Below are positions 1,230 to 11,479 of a DNA stretch of 11,479 nucleotides, one piece after another. The translations under genes and the position numbers were made by a program. The notes beneath the pieces were generated by a model. It saw only the letters and a program-made list of their open reading frames with translations, was not told where the DNA came from and ran no database searches. The stretch's first letter is position 1, and each line of letters starts with the position of its first letter. The stretch is taken from assembly GCA_022710245.1 (NCBI GenBank), contig JAKLHH010000124.1, positions 1-11,479 on the forward strand, written 5' to 3'. The DNA is from Myxococcota bacterium (GTDB lineage: Bacteria > Myxococcota > Polyangia > GCA-2747355 > JAKLHH01).

Positions 1230-1916
1230 TCAGTGGGTGTGCGACGGCTGGGCAGCGACCTGGGTGCCCGGGTGGGCGCGCGCCGCGAGCACGCGCGCGG
1301 CCTCCTTGCGCACGGACTCGACCATGGTGGTCACCGCGTCGCGCAGGCCGCTCGTCAGGATCGCGTTCGGCGCGGCGGTGTGCGGCACCGCGAGCATCTG
1401 GTACGTGAGCAGGCTGCGACCGTTGCCCCAGGGGTGGATCCACGCCACGCCCTCGTAGGACTTCAGCGTGCCGTTGAGCATCTTCCAGGTGACGACCAGG
1501 ATGCCGTTGCGGTTGCCGGTCTGGGTGGCGAGGTACGCCCAGGTCTTGTTCACCGGCCAGGGGAGATCGCACTCGATCACGAAGCGGTTGTCCTTCACCC
1601 GCCGCGAGGCGGTGATGCGCGGGACGAAGCTCTTGTAGCTCTGGAACCCGGTCAGGATCTGGCGCACCACCTCGGGCGGCGCGTCGATGACGCCCATCGC
1701 CCGGCCCGGCAGGACACCGGGCGTGCCAGGCACCGAGACGGTCACGATCTCGCCCTCCCGGATCCGGGTGGCGACGTCACGGCTGGCGAAGGCCGGCAGG
1801 GGCAGAGCCAGCAGGCCGAGGGCGAGGGGAAGCCAGAGCGGCGTTCTCGAGGAGCGGCGCCCCACACGTCGGGCGGTGGTGGGGAGCTGCCGCGACCAAC
1901 AATTCGTGCTCATCAT
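1230..1916 (-). CDS. Exported START/SRPBCC-fold protein (polyketide cyclase / lipid-transfer type)
   Basis: The protein has 228 residues. The start at 1916 is chosen because AAGGAG lies 5 nt upstream of tandem ATGs (MM); a longer frame back to 2036 has no ribosome site. The signal peptide is unusually long: a 25-residue basic n-region, a hydrophobic core (LWLPLALGLLALPL, about 27-40) and AFA cleavage at residue 44. The mature part shows START/SRPBCC features: GVIDAPPEVVRQIL at the N-terminal helix, then YKSFVPRI, DLPWPVNKTWAYL, GVAWIHPWGNGRSLLTYQML and a C-terminal amphipathic helix (GLRDAVTTMVESVRKEAARV). Relatives bind hydrophobic ligands in a helix-grip pocket; the ligand here cannot be told. 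Residues 5-21 of the n-region are encoded by a dispersed palindromic repeat (see 1854-1905), so the repeat has apparently been captured as coding sequence. The periplasm is the likely location. The fold call is good; the function is uncertain. Confidence 0.85.
   Translation of the reverse strand: MMSTNCWSRQLPTTARRVGRRSSRTPLWLPLALGLLALPLPAFASRDVATRIREGEIVTVSVPGTPGVLPGRAMGVIDAPPEVVRQILTGFQSYKSFVPRITASRRVKDNRFVIECDLPWPVNKTWAYLATQTGNRNGILVVTWKMLNGTLKSYEGVAWIHPWGNGRSLLTYQMLAVPHTAAPNAILTSGLRDAVTTMVESVRKEAARVLAARAHPGTQVAAQPSHTH
1854..1905 (-). repeat. Dispersed palindromic repeat, copy A (inside coding sequence)
   Basis: This 52-bp stretch aligns without gaps to the tandem copies at 11026-11139, with eight differences. 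The CCGCGACCAACAATT end is intact; the other end lacks the GTCGCGGC outer arm and reads GAGCGGC, so the copy is decayed on one side. The inner hairpin is CCCCAC (1860-1865) with GTGGGG (1879-1884), and two of its base pairs differ from the tandem copies on both sides at once, keeping the pairing. Read on the minus strand it encodes NCWSRQLPTTARRVGRRS, starting four codons into the START-domain protein. Confidence 0.8.
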
Positions 1917-2204
1917 GGTCTCTCCTTGGCGCGAAGGGATATCAGGATCCATGCCAGCGGGGAAGAGCACGAAAGGAGGAAGTTTTTCCCGATGTGGCGT
2001 GGGCGGGTGTGGCTCCGTTGCAACAGCTTCCGGCACGCCCGCCGCAGAAACGCATCACCCCTGTACGATTGTTTAACACTTCGCCTACCCCTCCGCGTAT
2101 GTCTCCTCGGCTGAGCGATCCAGAGTTGACAGAGCTGATTCGAGAAGACGGGCCGGCGAGACAGAGCAGCTAGAGCCAACCCACCCCCAGACCGAGGTTA
2201 GACG
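1917..2204. other. Divergent intergenic region between START-domain gene and ECF sigma gene
   Basis: 288 bp hold the control regions of both genes, but I cannot place a convincing promoter. TTGACA at 2126-2131 (plus) is a perfect -35 hexamer, yet the bases 16-18 nt downstream are GC-rich with no -10. TACGAT at 2064-2069 resembles a -10 but lacks a partner -35. AAAGGAGG at 1972-1979 (plus) is followed 12 nt later by ATG at 1992 of a 40-codon Arg-rich frame that I do not accept as a gene. This is the most AT-rich patch nearby (2064-2085), as expected for a promoter region. Confidence 0.4.
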
Positions 2205-2879
2205 ATGCGCCAGAAGACCACCGGTGCAGTGAGGACTCGTGTATCCGCCGCTCAGAAGACGGACGCCCTCAAGCAGGAGGAGGCTCGCCTGCTCAAGCGC
2301 GTGCTCCGCGGCGACCAGCAGGCCTGGGCCGAGTTCTCCCGCCGGTACGAGAACCTGATCGTCTCCTGCGTGATCAAGGTCCTGCGCCGCTACAACGCGT
2401 CCTTCTGCGCCGAGGACCTGGCGGACCTGGTCGCCGAGGTGTGGCTGGTCCTGCTCCGCGACGACATGCGCAAGCTGCGGCTCTATGACGCGTCGCGCGG
2501 CTACCGGCTGGCGAGCTGGGTCGGTCTGATGGCCACCAACTCGACCATCGACCAGCTGCGGCTCCGCTCGGCCGACTGCACGTACCTCGACGACATCGCC
2601 TGCCCCGAGCGGCTCCTCGTCGACGCCTCCTCCCCGGACGCGGGCATCGAGGAGCGCGAGGCGGCGGATCTGGCCCGGCGCGCGCTCGACCAGCTCTCGG
2701 GCGAGGAGCGGGACTTCGTGGTCTCCTGCTTCCACGAGGAGCGCCGGCCCGAGGAGCTCGCCGAGGAGCTCGGCATCACCGTGAACACGGTCTACAGCCG
2801 CAAGTTCAAGATCCGCGAGAAGCTGGTGCGCATCGTCGGCGAGCTCGACGCGTCGTGCGCGGCGGCGATGGCGGCGTAG
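2205..2879 (+). CDS. ECF-like sigma-70 family RNA polymerase sigma factor
   Basis: The protein has 224 residues; ATG at 2205 follows GAGG by 7 nt. Region 2 spans about residues 27-119: LLKRVLRGDQQAWAEFSRRY (region 2.1-like), then EDLADLVAEVWLVLL (2.2) and the promoter-melting helix ASRGYRLASWVGLMATNSTI followed by DQLR (about 96-119). A variable acidic linker (about 122-155) leads to region 4 (about 160-212): ALDQLSGEERDFVV and the helix-turn-helix PEELAEELGITVNTVYSRKF for -35 recognition. There is no sigma region 1 or 3, which is the ECF layout. The first 24 residues form a basic extension. No anti-sigma gene follows: the next 440 bp are non-coding and the neighbour is convergent, so control must come from elsewhere or be transcriptional. 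The family call is secure; the target promoters and signal are unknown. Confidence 0.92.
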   Translation: MRQKTTGAVRTRVSAAQKTDALKQEEARLLKRVLRGDQQAWAEFSRRYENLIVSCVIKVLRRYNASFCAEDLADLVAEVWLVLLRDDMRKLRLYDASRGYRLASWVGLMATNSTIDQLRLRSADCTYLDDIACPERLLVDASSPDAGIEEREAADLARRALDQLSGEERDFVVSCFHEERRPEELAEELGITVNTVYSRKFKIREKLVRIVGELDASCAAAMAA

Positions 2880-2910
2880 GGCTTATCCCTCCACCCATCC
2901 CCAGATCGCC

Positions 2911-3142
2911 GCCCGGGCCACGGCTTCGCCGTGCCTCGCCCGCTCGAGCGAGCCGCTCGTTTATTGCTCGCTGGTCTTGCGACGTCGGTCGCGAGCCCGC
3001 GGACGGCGGAGGCGCCGCGCATCATTCCCGCGGGCGAGAGGCCGTGCAGGGGCGGCTGCGCGCGGGAGGTGCGCCGAGGAGAGGCAGACGCTTCTGGCGC
3101 TTGCTTGCGGCTCGCTCGAGCGGGCGAGGCGATGGCCCGGGC
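2911..3142. repeat. Long imperfect inverted repeat, possible MITE or structured RNA
   Basis: The 24 bases at 2933-2956 are the exact reverse complement of 3107-3130, and the outer 10 bases GCCCGGGCCA (2911-2920) are the exact reverse complement of 3133-3142. The left arm carries about 11 extra bases between the two matching blocks, and these form most of a CACGGC-TTC-GCCGTG hairpin (2919-2933). The arms enclose 150 bp of unrecognised GC-rich sequence. No clear target-site duplication flanks it: TCGCC is on the left and TCGCT on the right. It may be a degenerate miniature inverted-repeat element, or a large RNA stem-loop at the end of the sigma transcript. Confidence 0.75.
2919..2933 (+). terminator. 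Hairpin without U-tract downstream of the sigma gene
   Basis: CACGGC (2919-2924) pairs with GCCGTG (2928-2933) around a TTC loop, 40 nt after the sigma stop codon. No T-run follows, so if it terminates transcription it would do so weakly or with Rho. It coincides with the extra bases in the left arm of the 2911-3142 inverted repeat. Confidence 0.3.
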
Positions 3143-3166
3143 TCGCTCGACGCCAGTGCAGGGAGC

Positions 3167-3297
3167 AAGAAGCAGAAGCAGAAGCAGAAGCAGAAGCAAT
3201 AGGCGGAGGCAGAAGCAGAAGCAATAGGCGGAGGCAGAAGCAATAGGCGGAGGCAGAAGCAATAGGCGGAGGCAGAAGCAATAGGCGGAGGCAGAAG
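3167..3297. repeat. Compound tandem array: AGCAGA-type hexamers and 19-bp units
   Basis: The array starts with about five GAAGCA hexamers (to about 3200). It then switches to a 19-bp unit, CAATAGGCGGAGGCAGAAG, whose starts fall at 3197, 3222, 3241, 3260 and 3279. The first spacing is 25, that is 19 plus one extra hexamer; the others are exactly 19. The 19-mer itself contains GGCAGAAGCA, so it seems to have grown from the hexamer. The plus strand is almost entirely purine apart from C and a single T per unit. Near-identity of units suggests recent slippage and variable copy number. Confidence 0.9.
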
Positions 3298-3322
3298 AGG
3301 CGGGGGAGGCGGGAGGCGGAGG
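3291..3322 (+). other. G-rich tract at the end of the tandem array
   Basis: The plus strand reads as closely spaced G-runs (GG, GGGGG, GG, GGG, GG, GG, GG), ending at the stop codon of the sigma-54 activator gene. It could form a two-tier G-quadruplex, or a triplex with the adjacent purine array. Only two runs have three or more G, so it does not meet the usual G3 motif. Confidence 0.35.
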
Positions 3323-4693
<1,371 letters not shown>

Positions 4694-4700
4694 GGGCCGG

Positions 4701-4730
4701 AGCATAGTGCAAGCGAGCGCGCGGTGTAAA
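4701..4730 (-). promoter_or_regulatory. Candidate sigma-70 promoter of the sigma-54 activator gene, leaderless
   Basis: On the minus strand TTTACA (4730-4725; five of six to TTGACA) and TATGCT (4706-4701; four of six to TATAAT) are 18 bp apart. TATGCT ends 7 nt before the ATG at 4693, so the predicted transcript starts at or within a base or two of the start codon. No ribosome binding sequence is present, which agrees with leaderless translation. Confidence 0.5.
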
Positions 4731-4746
4731 CGCTGCGGCCGCGGCT

Positions 4747-4799
4747 CCCCGCGGCTCCCGCGGCCCCCCAGCGGCTCCCAGCCCCCCGCCACGGCCCCC
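4747..4799 (-). other. Canonical G-quadruplex motif in the ssb / regulator spacer
   Basis: The minus strand has six G-tracts of 3-6 (at 4747-4750, 4757-4759, 4764-4769, 4777-4779, 4782-4787 and 4795-4799), separated by loops of 6, 4, 7, 2 and 7 nt. This satisfies the G3+N1-7 rule with tracts to spare. The tracts partly come from three copies of GCGGCTCCC (4741, 4751 and 4771). The motif lies upstream of both divergent genes. Confidence 0.7.
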
Positions 4800-4831
4800 G
4801 GGGCGCCGGGAACCGCCGGATCTGCGGGTGC

Positions 4832-4860
4832 TTGACAGGGCGGGGGGGGTAGTTCATCGT
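4832..4860 (+). promoter_or_regulatory. Candidate ssb promoter
   Basis: TTGACA at 4832-4837 is a perfect -35 hexamer. Seventeen bases downstream CATCGT (4855-4860) matches the -10 consensus at only three of six positions, so the -10 is weak. The spacer contains eight consecutive G (4842-4849), unusual for a promoter spacer. Transcription would start near 4867, which would place the ribosome site at or just past the 5' end. The position just upstream of ssb supports the -35, and the exact start is uncertain. Confidence 0.4.
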
Positions 4861-4877
4861 CCTCGCGAGGAGGCCCC

Positions 4878-5303
4878 ATGGCAGGCGTCAACAAGGTGAT
4901 CTTGATCGGCAATCTCGGCGCGGACCCGGAGCTCCGCTACACCAGCGGCGGCTCGGCGGTGGCCGACCTGCGGCTCGCTACCACCCGCAAGTACACGGGC
5001 AAGGACGGCGCCACGCAGGAAGACACCCAGTGGCACCGCGTGGTCGTCTGGGGTAAGCAGGCCGAGCACTGCAAGGAGTACCTGAGCAAGGGCCGGCAGT
5101 GCTACGTCGAGGGTCGCCTGCAGACGCGCCAGTGGGAGGACCGCGACGGCAACAAGCGCTACACCACCGAGGTGGTGGCCGAGATCGTGCAGTTCCTCGG
5201 CGGCGGCGGCCGCGGGGGCGGCGCCGGCGTGGGCGGCGAGCCACCGCCGCCGGACGACTCCCAGGCGCCGTCGAACCTCGGCGACGACGACATCCCCTTC
5301 TAG
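4878..5303 (+). CDS. ssb: Single-stranded DNA-binding protein
   Basis: The protein has 141 residues. It coats single-stranded DNA during replication, repair and recombination, and recruits partners through its acidic tail. ATG at 4878 follows GAGGAGG by 4 nt. The OB-fold covers about residues 1-108: [20 protein letters not shown] is the classic start, then [41 protein letters not shown] and [15 protein letters not shown] short Gly-rich and Pro-rich linker (about 109-130) leads to the conserved tip DDDIPF at the C-terminus, which contacts repair and replication proteins. Relatives of E. coli length have a longer linker, so this is a compact version. The gene is apparently monocistronic: it is divergent from the sigma-54 activator, with 286 bp before the next gene. 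Assignment is secure. Confidence 0.97.
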
Positions 5304-5391
5304 AGATCGAGAGCGGTCCCTTGCTGGTCCCGCCGCTCCGCGGCGATCCACCTTGCTCGCATCCGCATCCGCGGTCGCGGGCGCCGCACAG

Positions 5392-5438
5392 ATTCGCCCT
5401 GCATCGCGGAGCGCCCGCAGGACGCGAGCAGGGCGAAT
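5392..5438. repeat. 11-bp inverted repeat abutting repeat copy B
   Basis: ATTCGCCCTGC (5392-5402) is exactly complementary to GCAGGGCGAAT (5428-5438), with a 25-nt loop that can itself form GCGG...CCGC. Its right arm overlaps the first bases of the palindromic repeat copy B, so two palindromes are joined head to tail. There is no T-run, so it is not a standard terminator for ssb. Confidence 0.65.
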
Positions 5439-5506
5439 TGTTGGTCGCGGCAGCTGCGCCCGGCCGCCGTACCCCCGGGCGCACCTGGGCGGCGCCGCGA
5501 CAAGTG
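5435..5506 (+). repeat. Dispersed palindromic repeat, copy B (long inner hairpin)
   Basis: It begins GAATTGTTGGTCGCGG and ends GCGCCGCGACAAGTG, like the tandem copies at 11026-11139 read in reverse. The outer stem is GTCGCGGC (5444-5451) with GCCGCGAC (5494-5501), perfect over 8 bp. The middle differs from the other copies and is about 12 bp longer, yet forms its own perfect 8-bp stem, GCGCCCGG (5456-5463) with CCGGGCGC (5475-5482). It lies between ssb and the lipoprotein operon and is non-coding. Confidence 0.85.
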
Positions 5507-5589
5507 TTGGGCGGTCGTCCGAGGCCGTCGCGACCCATCACAGGTTGTTGGACTGGACCCCACGGCGCCAACAGCTGACCAGGAGTCTC

Positions 5590-7764
5590 ATGCACCTCAC
5601 GCGCCTCACGCTGCTCGCCTGCGCTCTCGGAGTGCTCTCCACGCTGCCGGCCTGCACCGGCCTGCACGCCACCCGGCCCGATGAGCTCCGCGTCACTCGC
5701 GCGGTGCTCTACCAGAACGGCATCGGCTACTTCGAGAGGCAGGGGCGCGTCGAGGGCAACCTCCTCAAGCTGCGCATCCTGCCGCAGCAGATCGCCGACG
5801 TGCTCAAGTCGCTGACCGTCGTCGACCTCGGCACCGGGCGCGCGATCAACATCGCGCTCCCCGTCGAGAAGACCCGCGTGCGCCAGCTCGCCGCGCTGCC
5901 CCAGCAGGTGCGCGAGAGCGGCGGCCTGGTGGGCATCGCGCAGGCCTTCCGCGGCGCGCGCGCGACGGTGCAGGCGAGCGACGCCTCGGGTGAGGGGCGG
6001 CTGGTCGGCGTCGAGCAGCTCTCCGACAAGGGGGAGTGGCGCCTGACCATCCTGCGCGACGACGGCACCCTGCAGAGCTTCGAGCTCTCCAAGGTCTACG
6101 CGCTGCAGGTCCAGGACCGCACCCTCGAGCTCGGCCTGCGCAAGGCGCTCGATGTCTCCCTCGACGAGGGCTCCTGGAAGCCGGTCGAGCTCGCCGTGCA
6201 CCTGGCCGGCCCGACGCCGCACGACGTCCTCGTCAGCTACGTGGTGGAGATGCCGACCTGGAAGCCGGCCTACCGCGTGGTCCTCGGCAAGGACTCCAAG
6301 GAGGGGCTGCTGCAGGGCTGGGCGGTGGTCGACAACGTCTCCGGCGAGGACTGGGACCAGGTCGGCCTCGCGCTCACGGCGGGGACGCCGCTCACCTTCA
6401 CCTATGACCTCTACACCCCGCGCTACGTGCGCCGGCCTGACCTCTCGCCGCAGCAGGAGGCCTGGGCCGAGGCGCCGCCGCCGCCGACGGGCGGCGCCGC
6501 CGACGAGTCCGCCGCTGCCGCGCCCGCCGAGGAGGCGAAGTCGCTGGCCGACTCCGACGACGGCGAGGGCTACGGCAGCGGCTACGGCAAGGGCGGCGGC
6601 AAGGACAAGGCGAAGAAGGAGGCGCGCTATCGCGCTCCGCGGCGGGCCTCGGCGGCCCCCTCGCCGAAGTCGGACACGATGACGCGCGGCCCGGGCGGGT
6701 ACGGTGGGGCGCCCGCCGCCGAGCCGGCGCCGACCATGTCGAACGCGCTCCTCGAGAAGAGCTTTCGCGCGCTGGTCGCCGGCTCGCGGGTCGGCAGCCT
6801 CTTCCGCTACGACATCGAGGAGCCGGTCACCATCAAGGACCGCCAGAGCGCCCTCGTCTCCATCCTGAACAAGAAGGTGCCGGCCGAGGACATCCTCCTC
6901 TACCGGGTGGACGCCTCCCCGATCAACCCCTACCGCGCGGTGCGCCTCACCAACAGCACCGGCTACATGCTGGAGAAGGGGCCGGTCGCCATCTACCGCG
7001 ACGGGAACTTCGTCGGCGAGGCGGTGGGCGGGCAGGTGGAGGCGAAGACCTCCGCCTTCATCCCCTACTCGGTGGACGGGCGCTTCATCATCACCCTGCA
7101 GGACGAGGTGAAGGACGAGCAGGCGCGCCTGATCAAGATCGTCGACGGCCAGATCGTGGTGGAGGTCAAGCAGGTCTCGCTCCACAAGTACACCATCCAC
7201 AACGCGAGCGGCGAGGCCACGACCCTCTACGTGCAGCGCGGGCACCGGCCCGGCTGGAAGCTCACCAAGCCGGACAAGGGCGTGCTGATCGAGAAGGACA
7301 ACTACTTCGCGCCGGCCAAGGTCGCCGCCAAGGGCAAGACCGAGCTCGAGGTGCGCGAGGAGACGCCGGTCCGCCGCTGGGTCAGCGTCTACTCCGAGGA
7401 GGGCCGGCAGGCGCTCGGCCTCTACCTGAAGGACCCCAGCGCCGATCCGAAGCTGAAGGCCTCCCTGCGCGAGGCGCTCGACCTGCAGGAGAAGCTGGCC
7501 AAGGTGGAGGAGGAGCTCGCGCGCCTGCGGCGTGAGAAGGACACCTTCGCGCAGCGGCAGACCGAGGTGCGCGAGAACCTCAAGCTCCTCGGCAAGTCGA
7601 TCCGCAACGCCGACCTGGCGCGCAAGCTCACCACGACGCTCCTCGAGCTGGAGACCAAGCTCAACGACGCGACCCGCAACCTGGTGGCCAAGGACGTCAA
7701 GCGGACAGAGATGCGCGATCGCCTGACCGTGCTCTTCAAGTCGATCACGCTCGAGGTCAAGTAG
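5590..7764 (+). CDS. DUF4139-type lipoprotein with C-terminal coiled coil
   Basis: The protein has 724 residues. ATG at 5590 follows AGGAG by 4 nt and gives a lipoprotein signal with lipobox LPAC (Cys22); Thr at +2 suggests the outer membrane. The open frame upstream of 5590 is non-coding repeat sequence. An N-terminal beta-rich region starts RAVLYQNGIGYFERQG. The DUF4139-like signature follows: MPTWKPAY (about 222-228), then VVDNVSGEDWDQVGLALTAG (GEDW at 252-255). A low-complexity insert rich in Ala, Pro, Gly and Lys (about 295-385) splits the domain, and beta-rich sequence resumes (SLFRYDIEEPVTI, VRLTNSTGYMLEKGPVAIYR). A coiled coil (about 625-710) ends the protein. DUF4139 proteins are of unknown biochemical function. 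The stop overlaps the next gene's GTG by one base (TAGTG), so the two are translationally coupled. Family call good, role unknown. Confidence 0.88.
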   Translation: MHLTRLTLLACALGVLSTLPACTGLHATRPDELRVTRAVLYQNGIGYFERQGRVEGNLLKLRILPQQIADVLKSLTVVDLGTGRAINIALPVEKTRVRQLAALPQQVRESGGLVGIAQAFRGARATVQASDASGEGRLVGVEQLSDKGEWRLTILRDDGTLQSFELSKVYALQVQDRTLELGLRKALDVSLDEGSWKPVELAVHLAGPTPHDVLVSYVVEMPTWKPAYRVVLGKDSKEGLLQGWAVVDNVSGEDWDQVGLALTAGTPLTFTYDLYTPRYVRRPDLSPQQEAWAEAPPPPTGGAADESAAAAPAEEAKSLADSDDGEGYGSGYGKGGGKDKAKKEARYRAPRRASAAPSPKSDTMTRGPGGYGGAPAAEPAPTMSNALLEKSFRALVAGSRVGSLFRYDIEEPVTIKDRQSALVSILNKKVPAEDILLYRVDASPINPYRAVRLTNSTGYMLEKGPVAIYRDGNFVGEAVGGQVEAKTSAFIPYSVDGRFIITLQDEVKDEQARLIKIVDGQIVVEVKQVSLHKYTIHNASGEATTLYVQRGHRPGWKLTKPDKGVLIEKDNYFAPAKVAAKGKTELEVREETPVRRWVSVYSEEGRQALGLYLKDPSADPKLKASLREALDLQEKLAKVEEELARLRREKDTFAQRQTEVRENLKLLGKSIRNADLARKLTTTLLELETKLNDATRNLVAKDVKRTEMRDRLTVLFKSITLEVK

Positions 7765-8570
7765 TGTACCGACGTCGGACCATCGCGGTGGTGATGCCGG
7801 CCTTCAACGTGGAGGACCGCGTGGAGCGCGCGGTCCTCTCCGTCCCCGGCTTCGTCGATCACGTGATCGTCATCGACGACGGCAGCGACGACGGCACCGG
7901 CGCGGTGGCCAGGCGCACCGGTCGGCCCGGGCTCTGCGTGCTCCGCCACCCGCAGAACAGCGGGGTCGGCGCCGCCATCGCCACCGGCTACGCGGAGGCG
8001 CTGCGCCTCGGCGCCGAGATCACGGCGGTGATGGCCGGCGACGGGCAGATGGACCCCGCCGACCTGCCGGCGCTCCTCGACCCGGTGGTCGACGGGCGCG
8101 CCGAGTACGTGAAGGGCAACCGCTTCCGCCGGCGCGGCGTCTGGCGGGTGATGCCGAAGGCACGCCTCTTCGGCAACGTGGTGCTGAGCCTGCTCACGCG
8201 GCTCACCTCGGGCTACTGGCACATCTTCGACTCGCAGTGCGGCTACACGGCGATCTCCGGCGGTGCGCTCCGCGCCATCGGCTGTCGCCTCTTCGCGCGC
8301 TACGGCTACCCGAACGACCTCCTCGCGCGGCTCGGCGAGGTGGGCGCGCGCGTGGAGGAGGTGCCGGTGCGGGCGGTCTACGACGGGCAACGCTCGGGGA
8401 TCCGCCCCTGGACCGTGGTCTATCCGATCCTCTTCGTCCTGCTCCGCTCCATGGGGCGGCGGCTCTGGCGGCAGAGGCTGCGGCCGCTCCTCGGCGCGCG
8501 GCCGGTTGCGCCCGCGCTGGCGCCGCAGCCGCAGGCCCCGAAGCACCTCCTCTCGGCGCCGCCGCGCTGA
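7764..8570 (+). CDS. Family 2 glycosyltransferase, dolichol-phosphate-mannose-synthase-like
   Basis: The protein has 268 residues. The GTG start at 7764 uses the last base of the upstream TAG stop. The GT-A fold shows the usual order: AVVMPAFNVEDRVERAV (about 8-24), the nucleotide site HVIVIDDGSDDGTGAVA, NSGVGAAIATGYAEAL, and AVMAGDGQMDPADLPALL, where GDGQMDP is the DXD-equivalent metal site. KGNRF and a C-terminal QCGYTAISGGAL follow, then YGYPNDLLARLGEVGARVEEVPV and IRPWTVVYPILFVLLRS. This is the pattern of transferases that load a sugar from a nucleotide donor onto a polyprenyl-phosphate or similar lipid carrier. The last 30 residues are a Pro/Ala-rich tail without a clear membrane helix. 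It is coupled to the DUF4139 lipoprotein and sits 17 bp ahead of a second glycosyltransferase, suggesting shared envelope glycan work. Donor and acceptor are unknown. Confidence 0.9.
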   Translation: MYRRRTIAVVMPAFNVEDRVERAVLSVPGFVDHVIVIDDGSDDGTGAVARRTGRPGLCVLRHPQNSGVGAAIATGYAEALRLGAEITAVMAGDGQMDPADLPALLDPVVDGRAEYVKGNRFRRRGVWRVMPKARLFGNVVLSLLTRLTSGYWHIFDSQCGYTAISGGALRAIGCRLFARYGYPNDLLARLGEVGARVEEVPVRAVYDGQRSGIRPWTVVYPILFVLLRSMGRRLWRQRLRPLLGARPVAPALAPQPQAPKHLLSAPPR

Positions 8571-8587
8571 CCCTCGAGGCAGCCGCG

Positions 8588-9790
8588 ATGCGGCTGGGCG
8601 TCCTCACCACCTCGTACCCGCGCCGCCCCGACGACCTCGCCGGCACCTTCGTGGCGGGCCTGGCGGGCTGGCTCGCCGCGCAGGGCGACGAGCTCGAGGT
8701 GCTCGCCCCGGCGCCGCCGGCTCCCGCGCTGCCGCCGGCGGAGGCCGAGCCGCGCCCCGGGATCCGTCTCGAGCAGCTCCGCTACGCGCGGCGGCCGCGG
8801 CTCTTCTACGGCGCCGGCGCCCCCGACAACCTCCAGCACCCCGCCACGTGGCTGCAGGTGCCCGGCTTCGTGCTGCGCCTCGCGCGGGCCTGTCACGCGC
8901 GCGCCGCCGGCTGGGACGCGGTGATCAGCCACTGGCTGCTCCCCTGCGGCGTGATCGCCGCTCGCGCGGGCCGCGGCCTGCCCCACCTGGCCATCGCGCA
9001 CTCCTCGGACGTGCACCTCCTCGGGCGGATGGGGCCGCTCGCGGCGGCGGCGCTGGCCGCGCTCGCGCGCCCTCGCACCGCGCTCCTGCTCAGCAGCGAG
9101 GCGCTGCGCCCGCTGCTCGCGCGGCGCGCCCGCGGCACCTCCACCCGCCGACTCGTCGAGGCGGCGCGCGTGATGCGCATGGGGATCGCCGCGCCGGCGC
9201 ACGCGGTCTCCGCCGGGGAGCGCGCGGCCTGTCGCCGGCGGCTCGGGCTCGAGGGGCGGGTGGCGGTGCTCTCCCTCGGGAGGCTGGTGCCGGTCAAGGG
9301 CGTCGCGCTCCTCCTCGAGGCCTGCGCCGGGCTCGCGAGCGTGACCCTGCTCGTCGCGGGCGAGGGGCCGGAGCGGGCGAGGCTCGAGCGCCGCGCGGGC
9401 GAGCTCGGGCTCGCGGTGAGGTTTCTCGGCGAGCAGCTCGGGCGCGAGAAGGCGGAGCTCCTCGCCGCCGCCGATCTCCTCGCGCTGCCCTCGCGCCTGC
9501 TCGCCGACGGACGCACCGACTCGGCGCCGGTCGTCCTCCTCGAGGCGATGGCCGCCGGGCTGCCGCTGGTGGCGAGCCGGGTGGGCGGCAACGCGGAGCT
9601 GATCGAGGACGGCGTGAGCGGGCTCCTCGTCGAGAGCGGCGAGGTGGCGCCGCTCCGAGCGGCGCTCGCGAGGCTGGCGGCGGAGCCGGCGCTGCGGGCG
9701 CGCCTCGCCGCGGCGGGGCGCGAGGTGGCGGCGCGCCACACCTGGGAGGCGCTCGGGCCGCGGGTGCGCTCGATCCTCGGGGAGCTCTGA
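8588..9790 (+). CDS. Family 4 glycosyltransferase (GT-B fold)
   Basis: The protein has 400 residues. ATG at 8588 is 17 bp after the preceding stop, with GAGG about 11 nt upstream, and opens a typical GT4 N-terminus (MRLGVLTTSYPRRPDDLAGT, then an AGLAGWLAAQGDELEVLAP strand). The acceptor half includes WDAVISHWLLPCGVIAA and AIAHSSDVHLL. The C-terminal donor half has LSLGRLVPVKG (R232 and K237, phosphate binding), VTLLVAGEGPERARLE, AAADLLALPS and DSAPVVLLEAMAAGLPLVAS. The retaining-GT EX7E motif appears as D311-x7-E319: the first Glu is replaced by Asp, a conservative change. It should be cytosolic or peripheral, and last in the three-gene cluster 5590-9790. Many relatives build O-antigen, capsule or exopolysaccharide; the substrate here is unknown. 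Longer frames starting at 8237 and 8263 are wrong starts or shadows. Confidence 0.9.
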   Translation: MRLGVLTTSYPRRPDDLAGTFVAGLAGWLAAQGDELEVLAPAPPAPALPPAEAEPRPGIRLEQLRYARRPRLFYGAGAPDNLQHPATWLQVPGFVLRLARACHARAAGWDAVISHWLLPCGVIAARAGRGLPHLAIAHSSDVHLLGRMGPLAAAALAALARPRTALLLSSEALRPLLARRARGTSTRRLVEAARVMRMGIAAPAHAVSAGERAACRRRLGLEGRVAVLSLGRLVPVKGVALLLEACAGLASVTLLVAGEGPERARLERRAGELGLAVRFLGEQLGREKAELLAAADLLALPSRLLADGRTDSAPVVLLEAMAAGLPLVASRVGGNAELIEDGVSGLLVESGEVAPLRAALARLAAEPALRARLAAAGREVAARHTWEALGPRVRSILGEL

Positions 9791-9807
9791 GGTCTGCCTG
9801 GGCGCTC

Positions 9808-9836
9808 TTCGACAGCTCCCCGCCAGTGGTGATACC
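9808..9836 (+). promoter_or_regulatory. Weak promoter candidate for the glycine-rich lipoprotein gene
   Basis: TTCGAC (9808-9813) and GATACC (9831-9836) are 17 bp apart in the short gap after the glycosyltransferase cluster. Both match the sigma-70 consensus poorly (about two and three of six). It is included because this 82-bp gap is the only place for a separate promoter, but read-through from the cluster is equally possible. Confidence 0.25.
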
Positions 9837-9872
9837 CTGACCTTGTCTCAAGCCTGCGCTCTCGACGGGGAG

Positions 9873-11009
9873 ATGATGTGGACATCTTCGGCGTATCCCA
9901 GACGCGCTCCCACCGCTTGCTGGGCGCTCATCTCGCTGCTCGCGGGTTGCGCTCGTTCGGGGTCGACCTGCGTCAGCGATGGGCCCCTCGCCGACCTCGC
10001 CCAAGATAGCGCCGCGTCCGACCGTGCCCTCGACCAGCCCTGTCCATTTGGCCGCGCGGACGGCACCGCGTGCCTCGGTCTCGTGCCAGCCAACGGCTTC
10101 ACCTGGGGGACCACGCAGACCATCAACCCGATCAGCGGCACCACCGGCGTCAACACCTCGACCTGCGTCACGGCCACGGTGAGCGGAGGGTTCGTCGCCG
10201 GCATCTTGCAGGGAGGGGCCTGCGTCTTCACGCTCGACGCGCTCGTCGTCGCCAAGGGGGGGACCCTCGTGGCGTCGGGCGACCGCCCGCTCGTGTTGCT
10301 CGTCCGCGGAGACGTGCTCGTGGCGGGGACCATCGACGCGGGCGGCAAGGAGCAGACCCCGGGGCCGGGTGGGGGCGCCGCCAGTGCGTGGCAGGTGAGT
10401 GGCCCCCCCGGAGAAGGGCACGTTGGCGACTGTGGGAGTCACCTCGGCGGGGGCGGTGGCGGGTACGGCACCGCCGGCGGACCATCGTGCGGCGGGGTCG
10501 GGGGCGCGGTTACCGGGACCGCGGAGCTCGTGCCCCTCGCTGGTGGGAACGCGGGAGGCGTCGGCGGTGGAGGCGGCGGCGTGCTGCAGATCTCCGCGAC
10601 CGGCACTCTCCGCGTCGATGGTGCGATCACCGTCGGCGGAGGCGGCGGGAGCAGCGGAGGCGGTGGAGGCTCGGGTGGCGGGGTGCTGCTCGAGGCGGCC
10701 CGGATCGAGGGCGCAGGGATCGTCGCCGCCAACGGCGGAGGCGGTGGGGCCTATACGTGGCCCTCCACCGACGCGACCGGCGCGGACGGTGACGCCTCCT
10801 GGCAGCCGGCTGCTGGCGCCACTGCCGGGCCCGGCACCATAGGCGGGAGCGGCGCGACGGCTGCCTTCACGGCCACCGCCGGTGCGGGGGACGCGAGCGG
10901 CGGAGGGGGCGGCGTGGGTCGGGTCCGCTACAACACCCCTGCGCCGCCGCCCACGCCGCCTTTGCCGACGAGCGCGCACTTCAGCGTCGGACGCGTCCAG
11001 CTCAACTAG
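9873..11009 (+). CDS. Glycine-rich, probably beta-helical lipoprotein
   Basis: The protein has 378 residues. Two adjacent ATGs (9873, 9876) follow CGGGGAG; the second has the better spacing, and an upstream in-frame TTG at 9843 has no ribosome site. The lipoprotein signal is ALISLLAGC with the acylated Cys at residue 26. The N-terminal mature part is Asp/Ser/Cys-containing (CVSDGPLADLAQDSAASDRA). From about residue 140 the chain repeats short hydrophobic strands followed by Gly-runs: LVVAKGGTLVASGDR, VLVAGTIDAGGKE, LRVDGAITVGGGGG, ARIEGAGIVAANGGGGG. That is typical of a right-handed beta-helix with glycine-filled turns. It is expected on the cell surface, anchored by lipid, possibly in adhesion or matrix contact. 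It ends in a short Pro-rich segment and a polar tail (FSVGRVQLN). I cannot name the family. Its third-position GC is less extreme than that of the preceding genes at its 5' end. Confidence 0.82.
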   Translation: MMWTSSAYPRRAPTACWALISLLAGCARSGSTCVSDGPLADLAQDSAASDRALDQPCPFGRADGTACLGLVPANGFTWGTTQTINPISGTTGVNTSTCVTATVSGGFVAGILQGGACVFTLDALVVAKGGTLVASGDRPLVLLVRGDVLVAGTIDAGGKEQTPGPGGGAASAWQVSGPPGEGHVGDCGSHLGGGGGGYGTAGGPSCGGVGGAVTGTAELVPLAGGNAGGVGGGGGGVLQISATGTLRVDGAITVGGGGGSSGGGGGSGGGVLLEAARIEGAGIVAANGGGGGAYTWPSTDATGADGDASWQPAAGATAGPGTIGGSGATAAFTATAGAGDASGGGGGVGRVRYNTPAPPPTPPLPTSAHFSVGRVQLN

Positions 11010-11025
11010 CTCTGCCACCACGCCG

Positions 11026-11085
11026 CAATTGTCGCGGCGCCGCCCAGGTCGGGCGGTCGGGCGAAGCTGCCGCGACCAACAATTG
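11026..11085. repeat. Dispersed palindromic repeat, copy C (first tandem unit)
   Basis: One 54-bp unit from CAATTG (11026) to the next CAATTG (11080-11085), which it shares with copy D. The outer arms TTGTCGCGGC and GCCGCGACCAA pair with one bulged base. The inner part can form CGCCC with GGGCG. The length is a multiple of three and the minus-strand frame NCWSRQLRPTARPGRRRD is open through it. Confidence 0.9.
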
Positions 11086-11139
11086 TCGCGGCGCCGCCCA
11101 GGTCGGGCGGTCGGGCGAAGCTGCCGCGACCAACAATTG
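11080..11139. repeat. Dispersed palindromic repeat, copy D (second tandem unit)
   Basis: Identical in all 54 bases to copy C and directly adjacent to it, ending in a third CAATTG (11134-11139). Perfect identity indicates a recent tandem duplication or active homogenisation. CAATTG is itself a 6-bp palindrome and marks each unit boundary. Confidence 0.9.
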
Positions 11140-11230
11140 ACACTGACCCCGGACGGCGACATCTCCACAGACCAGCAGCGCCAGATCGAAGACGGCGTCG
11201 GGTTGTTTGGCCGAAGCGAAAGTGAGGAGC

Positions 11231-11479
11231 TCAGCCCGCCAGCGCCGAGCGAGCCGGCCCGAGCGCCTCCGCCGTGAGCCCACGTGCCTCGAGCTCCTCG
11301 GGGAGCGGCGAGCCGGTGATGAGCGCGCCCGCCAGCCGCGCGAGGGCCGGCGAGGTCTCGATGCCGAAGCCCCCCTGGCCGGCGAGCCAGAAGAAGCCGG
11401 GGGCCGTGGGGTCGAAGCCGACCGCGGGAAGCTCGTCGGCGACGAAGCTGCGCAGCCCCGCCCAGCGCCGCTCCACCGC
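11231..11479 (-). CDS. C-terminal end of a FAD-dependent amine/amino-acid oxidase-like protein (DadA/DAO type), partial
   Basis: Only the last 82 residues are in the window; the gene continues beyond the right edge, and a GTG at 11476 is most likely internal. The sequence WAGLRSFVADELPAVGFDPT, then PGFFWLAGQGGFGIETSPAL and ALITGSPLPEELE, is the conserved end of the FAD-dependent DAO family. It holds the Arg-containing active-site strand, the Pro-Val/Ala-Gly turn and the GQGGxGI motif that closes over the flavin. Family members oxidise amino acids or related amines, passing electrons to oxygen or the respiratory chain. The substrate cannot be told from this part. The last 15 residues are an Ala-rich tail. 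It is convergent with the glycine-rich lipoprotein across the repeat region. Confidence 0.85.
   Translation of the reverse strand, partial: AVERRWAGLRSFVADELPAVGFDPTAPGFFWLAGQGGFGIETSPALARLAGALITGSPLPEELEARGLTAEALGPARSALAG

Follow-up and report, generated by a model that had tools for sequence, protein, structure and literature searches.

The 11,479-nucleotide contig JAKLHH010000124.1 from a Myxococcota bacterium, hereafter the window, carries a short hairpin-forming repeat in several places, and the question is whether this repeat is a mobile element and, if so, of what kind. A first-pass annotation had placed four palindromic copies in the window, and four copies, designated A to D, were indeed present there at three places, with their coordinates confirmed (Table 1). 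The 20-mer AATTGTTGGTCGCGGCAGCT, which forms the first 20 bases of the unit, is invariant in all four copies. The longest word found in four places of the window has 20 bases, whereas 40 dinucleotide shuffles gave no such word longer than 14. For this comparison a simple tandem array (3161-3300) was excluded from both the window and the shuffles. Chance or composition is rejected as the origin of the repeat. The copies form a four-copy repeat family.

When the copies are brought into a common orientation they read AATTGTTGGTCGCGGCAGCT...GGCGCCGCGAC-AATT, and the layout of the unit is AATT-GTTG-GTCGCGGC-AGCT-(inner part)-GCCGCGAC-AATT. An 8-bp outer stem is formed by the arms GTCGCGGC/GCCGCGAC; as described before, they are common to all but the decayed end of copy A, the other three copies having both arms exactly and A only one of them. 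Copy A is identical to C at 45 of 58 positions. Copy B has 12 additional bases relative to the other copies, all of them in the inner part, and its inner stem measures 9 bp (TGCGCCCGG/CCGGGCGCA) instead of the 8 bp first reported. The cores are 46 nt in C/D and 58 nt in B. Copies C and D are a 54-bp head-to-tail tandem with 100% matches in Tandem Repeats Finder, and the trace of a second tandem follows B, where the right border AAGT is succeeded by GTTGG, so that AAGTGTTGG is placed as at the D/C junction. Words that agree with the unit start AATTGTTGG in at least 8 of its 9 bases occur five times in the window, namely at the four unit starts and at AAGTGTTGG, and B looks like what is left of a head-to-tail dimer of the C/D kind. 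A further candidate copy beside B (5506-5535, minus strand) had a local score of 30 against a shuffle mean of 28.3 and maximum of 35 (60 shuffles) and was not counted. The element measures about 50-66 bp, and its two measured periods, 54 and 66, are both multiples of three, which with only two distinct units is not taken as evidence of adaptation.

Beyond what the first-pass annotation had noticed, copy A is coding and in frame, the start of a second unit follows B, and AATT occurs only at copy borders. Copy A lies within the coding sequence of a secreted-protein gene, in frame from codon 5, and residues 5 to about 22 of the protein (NCWSRQLPTTARRVGRRS), some 18 residues, derive from it, giving the encoded N-terminus MMST-NCWSRQLPTTARRVGRRSS-RTPLWLPLALGLLALPLPAFA. 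Some homologues of this protein carry PF03364/PF10604. A conserved GRA-like motif, located with a simple pattern, lies at residue 70 here and at a median of 47 in 35 homologues; it lies beyond residue 70 in only one of them (P0006, at 109), and the stretch before it is shorter in 34 of the 35, a count that retains the fragment-like P0026 (motif at position 8) and concerns a protein family with variable N-termini. These positions fit an apparent in-frame gain of about 18 residues through copy A.

A fifth copy was found as a peptide. The C/D tandem was translated in six frames, and 26 residues of each were joined and searched against 5.8 billion proteins at E ≤10. Candidates in this search were limited to proteins of about 86-273 residues, so other carriers may have been missed. 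One protein was reported of 1,369 candidates: P0157, a 211-aa membrane protein with several hydrophobic segments, unrelated to the copy-A protein, whose longest contig is 4,111 bp. Residues 121-139 of P0157 (NCRGAAQVGRSGEAAATNN) are 19 residues identical to the translation of the C/D unit, for which about 10^-9 exact matches would be expected by chance under a rough composition model. P0157 reads the strand opposite to that read in copy A, again in phase AAT-TGT, and hydropathy shows a hydrophilic insert with hydrophobic segments on either side. No Pfam match was found in P0157. In-frame copies are thus seen in two unrelated proteins, the one in P0157 being known as a peptide only.

In total, there are five copies at four loci, four of them at three loci of the window and one in the P0157 peptide, and both strands are translated in genes. 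The repeat is real, dispersed and partly protein-coding, and it is probably mobile. The dispersed palindromic family of REP (repetitive extragenic palindrome) or MITE (miniature inverted-repeat transposable element) character that had been proposed for the window is supported by these data and strengthened by the copy in P0157. We consider it probable that the repeat is a very small, non-autonomous family of mobile palindromes, similar to REPs and to the Rickettsia palindromic elements (RPEs), that is able to insert in frame. The unit would be copied in trans by a transposase whose gene lies outside the window and which might recognise either the single-stranded hairpin (HUH/Y1 type, RAYT-like, RAYT being the REP-associated transposase) or the inverted ends (DDE type), and the parent transposase gene, RAYT/Y1 or DDE, would be flanked by AATTGTTGGTCGCGGC ends. 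The unit would insert at AATT or carry AATT along. It could survive inside genes because it adds 18 stop-free codons where extra residues are tolerated, such as the n-region of a signal peptide (copy A) or a stretch between membrane segments (P0157).

Table 1. Copies of the repeat and neighbouring features in the window.
Feature	Coordinates	Strand	Remarks
Secreted-protein gene	1230-1916	-	Signal peptide; AAGGAG upstream of ATG; without Pfam match of its own
Copy A	1847-1904	-	58 bases including AATT 1901-1904; other arm and AATT decayed (about 1847-1855)
ssb (single-strand binding protein)	4878-5303	+	Upstream of B, 132 bases away
Copy B	5436-5505	+	70 bases; AATT at left border, AAGT at right border
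AAGTGTTGG	5502-5510	+	8/9 identical to unit start AATTGTTGG; where next head-to-tail unit would begin
DUF4139 protein gene	5590-7764	+	Downstream of B, 84 bases away
Glycine-rich protein gene	9876-11009	+	Without Pfam match; C/D begins 17 bases past its stop codon
Copy C	11027-11084	-	AATT at both borders
Copy D	11081-11138	-	Identical to C (58/58); AATT 11081-11084 common to C and D
Putative open frame after C/D	11231-11479	-	Convergent; runs off window

How the unit compares with known palindromes was examined against excerpts of the papers cited here. REPs are short imperfect palindromes of about 20-60 bp (PMC3116915), usually with more than 100 copies in one genome (PMC2817692), and the unit resembles them in size, in its 8-bp outer stem and in its variable inner hairpin. 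Most REPs are found where the neighbouring genes are co-directional or convergent, and they are often close to 3' ends (PMC3733652). The placement of B, between the co-directional ssb and DUF4139 genes, and of C/D, close behind a stop codon and followed by a convergent putative frame, fits this pattern, whereas copy A is intragenic. Because intragenic REPs have been described for Opitutus, Rickettsia, Thauera and others (PMC3733652), the in-frame behaviour itself counts as known: the repeat family is new as far as searched, and in-frame insertion is already known for bacterial palindromes.

The tags of the two REP superfamilies give a less clear picture. The CGTC families have an unpaired CGTC at one end, in many repeats TGTC or CCTC, and a tail that is often CCA, with stems of 8-9 bp that begin with A/T pairs and in most cases loops of 4-5 bases (PMC3733652). 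In our copies CGTC stands at no end and occurs only inside A, on the other strand. In B, C and D, though not in A, the variant TGTC occupies one end, opening the other strand, but its last three bases are paired within the 8-bp stem, unlike the unpaired tag of the CGTC families; in addition, the stem opens with G/C and encloses a larger inner part. In the GTAG and CGTC families dimers of the head-to-tail type are missing, under-represented or negligible (PMC3733652), in contrast to the head-to-tail arrangement of C/D. With GTAG absent as well, as detailed below, and since the TGTC bases are paired and stem and loop differ, we do not file the family as a REP of either superfamily and regard a kinship with the CGTC families as possible.

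The RPEs offer a parallel in behaviour, as they too are palindromes found between genes and in frame in unrelated genes, with open frames (PMC2229807, PMC10969869, PMC3733652). By description, on which this comparison was made, RPEs measure 105-146 bp, and RPE-4 and RPE-6 belong to the CGTC families; the units here are 50-66 bp, have no CGTC at their ends and lie on a GC-rich Myxococcota-like contig. The Correia/NEMIS elements are likewise non-autonomous MITEs with inverted ends and some in-frame translation, with lengths of about 107 and 155 bp and terminal repeats of 24 bp (PMC2229807), but here no parent element is seen and, apart from the tandem, no target duplication is intact.

Several observations weigh against a mobile, REP-like palindrome. 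No transposase was detected among the nine window proteins scanned, and in particular no RAYT gene of the kind that is flanked by two inverted REP copies. The absence of GTAG noted in the first-pass annotation holds on either strand of all four copies, and the GTTG that precedes the stem is not among the listed variants GYAG, GYRG, GTRG, GTMG and GTGG (PMC3733652). The unit is open in all six frames, which is usual at such composition (P 0.24-0.42 by dinucleotide shuffle) and was rejected as a sign of selection. No pair of filled and empty sites was found, only one of ten window genes (DUF4139) having a match in the 20-kb region of G042, the closest genome compared, and no exact empty-site orthologue of the copy-A protein emerged, matches in 3 of 15 genomes being 31-40% identical. 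The match to P0157 has a search E-value of 1.5, and it is the 19-residue identity that makes the case. The AlphaFold model of P0157 is unusable (mean pLDDT, the predicted local distance difference test score, of 57) and draws residues 104-132, most of the insert, as one helix; with so poor a model the loop position of the insert is not confirmed. Homologues of P0157 without the insert were not found either, with weak matches in only 1 of 23 and 1 of 282 genomes, so the insertion in P0157 is deduced from the repeat itself. Of these two weak matches, the first, in L041, was spurious and the second, in L051, was not recovered by tblastn at E 1.

Other sequence collections were searched for the unit. 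The exact 20-mer had no match in contigs of 84,980 species in GTDB. With up to two mismatches it was absent from 96 genomes of the class and from four genomes of the class of G004, and it had a single occurrence in each of 6 genomes out of 317 from the class and of 5 out of 377 drawn from the phylum, compared with 5 and 4 genomes, respectively, for a backwards control pattern; the sets of 96, 317 and 377 genomes overlap, and diverged copies whose 20-mer has over two changes would escape this search. None of the nine distinct places matched with up to two mismatches had a second arm. BLAST with the C/D unit against five genomes gave noise-level matches only (best E 0.010), and G042 yielded nothing with the 20-mer pattern and only noise with a unit based on B (best E 0.041). 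In viral contigs, the 18-mer TTGTTGGTCGCGGCAGCT had four matches, none with a palindrome, a gapped arm pattern had one, inside a long open frame, and a 19-mer of the other arm had none. A plasmid or phage origin was rejected, as the C/D region had no plasmid match and the B region no phage match at E 1e-5.

The DUF4139 protein served to gauge how close the available genomes are. Its closest match among 309 genomes of the class of genome G001 is in G042, 78% identical over residues 4-250 of a 250-residue piece and 69% identical over the whole length, and the best other match, from a Joint Genome Institute (JGI) source, is 76% identical. It is protein similarity alone that makes the contig Myxococcota-like. 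Either the repeat family is narrow or the host lineage is absent from the collections, and the latter is likely because no genome closer than G042 was found.

The tetranucleotide AATT bears on how the unit would move. All five AATTs of the window stand at copy borders; outside the copies none was found where 2.45 were expected, and AATT is also below expectation in another 12 GC-rich loci. Two options follow: AATT travels with the element, or the element seeks it as a rare site. The borders would also suit a MITE of the DDE type. Such an element would be 50 bp long, have TTGGTCGCGGC / TTGTCGCGGC as its imperfect terminal inverted repeats, make a 4-bp target duplication of AATT and be mobilised by a full-length insertion sequence. 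AATT flanks C and D on both sides, B has AATT and AAGT, and the tandem fits one copy inserting into the duplicated AATT of another. The data fit AATT as a target duplication or as the unit's own border, but both AATTs are intact only in C/D, where one of them is common to the two copies, and A has one. The lack of AATT elsewhere in the window agrees no less well with an element that carries AATT, and the similarity at B continues five bases past AAGT. No parent element was seen in the window either, and the unit reaches at most the lower end of the 70-300 bp range stated for MITEs in the excerpt of PMC3733652. We regard a DDE-type MITE as unlikely on balance.

The pairing of the hairpin was then considered, as was the idea of a functional RNA or DNA hairpin that stabilises or terminates mRNA and is kept at gene 3' ends. 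The paired changes between A and C/D pointed out in the first-pass annotation (positions 9/29 and 11/27 in its numbering) are real, and the two double changes make up four of the seven A/C differences in the 43-base core. A statistical test of covariation on A versus C gave, for at least two compensated pairs on some axis, P 0.04 with random positions and P 0.13 with fixed positions and random bases, and covariation is not accepted as proof. In single-strand folding with DNA parameters, the cores had z-scores of -0.97 (A), -1.99 (B) and -2.82 (C/D), and with flanks -0.32 (A), 0.10 (B), -2.31 (C) and -3.50 (D), while RNA folding z-scores of the copies ranged from -0.09 to -1.98. C/D therefore fold better than shuffles, B weakly so as a core and not with its flanks, and A not at all. 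With three distinct sequences, these P values and an A that folds like shuffles, the annotation's view that selection or copying keeps the pairing is not established, and we regard the claim of maintained pairing as weak and unproven. A variable paired loop is also not new as such, since REP families with alternative complementary stem residues and variable self-complementary loops have been described (excerpt of PMC3733652).

For a functional hairpin speak the positions of C/D and B behind the stop codons of the glycine-rich protein and ssb genes, together with the ability of the copies to form hairpins. Copy A, by contrast, lies in coding sequence just after a start codon and the P0157 copy lies mid-gene, no terminator-like site was detected around C/D in 10900-11300, the window yielded no Rfam family at the gathering score, and the fold z-scores are modest, with A unremarkable. 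Such a function is improbable as the explanation of the family.

It is more improbable still that the repeat originated within a single gene and that ordinary recombination or duplication then spread it with no mobile element involved. Few copies are visible and C/D is a plain tandem duplication; moreover, the 20-base left flanks of B and D have 11 identical positions, a level reached by 2% of random pairs, and a repeat pair extends into them. The other five of the six between-copy flank comparisons were ordinary, and the occurrence of five copies at four loci, in either orientation and both within and between genes that are unrelated, argues against such an origin. Integron attC sites, whose boxes are GTTRRRY and RYYYAAC, also combine a conserved outer stem with a variable inner part and are imperfect palindromes with extra unpaired bases near genes, but these boxes are absent in A, C and D and present only at the right flank of B, the copies do not come one per cassette, their orientations differ and no integrase is among the nine window proteins scanned, which leaves attC with a negligible chance.

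Other features of the window were recorded alongside the repeat. The glycine-rich protein has a possible lipoprotein signal, LLAGC, recognised by eye. A perfect 24-bp inverted repeat (2933-2956 / 3107-3130) with arms 150 bases apart lies in the intergenic stretch after a sigma-factor gene, and an 18-base piece of it had no exact match in 66 loci compared; it is possibly another MITE-like element. A tandem array at 3207-3297, between the sigma-factor gene and an NtrC-like regulator gene, consists of 4.8 copies of the 19-bp unit AGGCGGAGGCAGAAGCAAT with 97% matches, and a shorter one at 1127-1163 comprises 2.3 copies of the 16-bp unit GGCCCGCGTTCTCGAG.

A bolder extension of the mobile-palindrome reading is that this uncultured Myxococcota lineage has a protein-coding palindrome class of its own, with six-frame stop-free units of a multiple of three bases inserting into frames at AATT. 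We put this forward tentatively and hold it to be doubtful. No report of a palindromic element of such kind in Myxococcota was among the literature matches listed, and the string "Myxococc" is absent from the text of PMC3733652 and PMC10969869; likewise, no description of AATT-GTTG-hairpin as a mobilisation signal was found in the excerpts of literature on such elements. If this extension is true, genes throughout the genome may carry inserts of 18-22 residues of common origin, and the family would parallel the Rickettsia elements independently, in bacteria other than the intracellular Rickettsiales. The mobile palindrome family itself, if confirmed, would add a GTAG-less family, from a GC-rich Myxococcota-like lineage, to the bacteria with intragenic selfish palindromes, and it would open the way to testing if such inserts are neutral passengers and which enzyme copies them.

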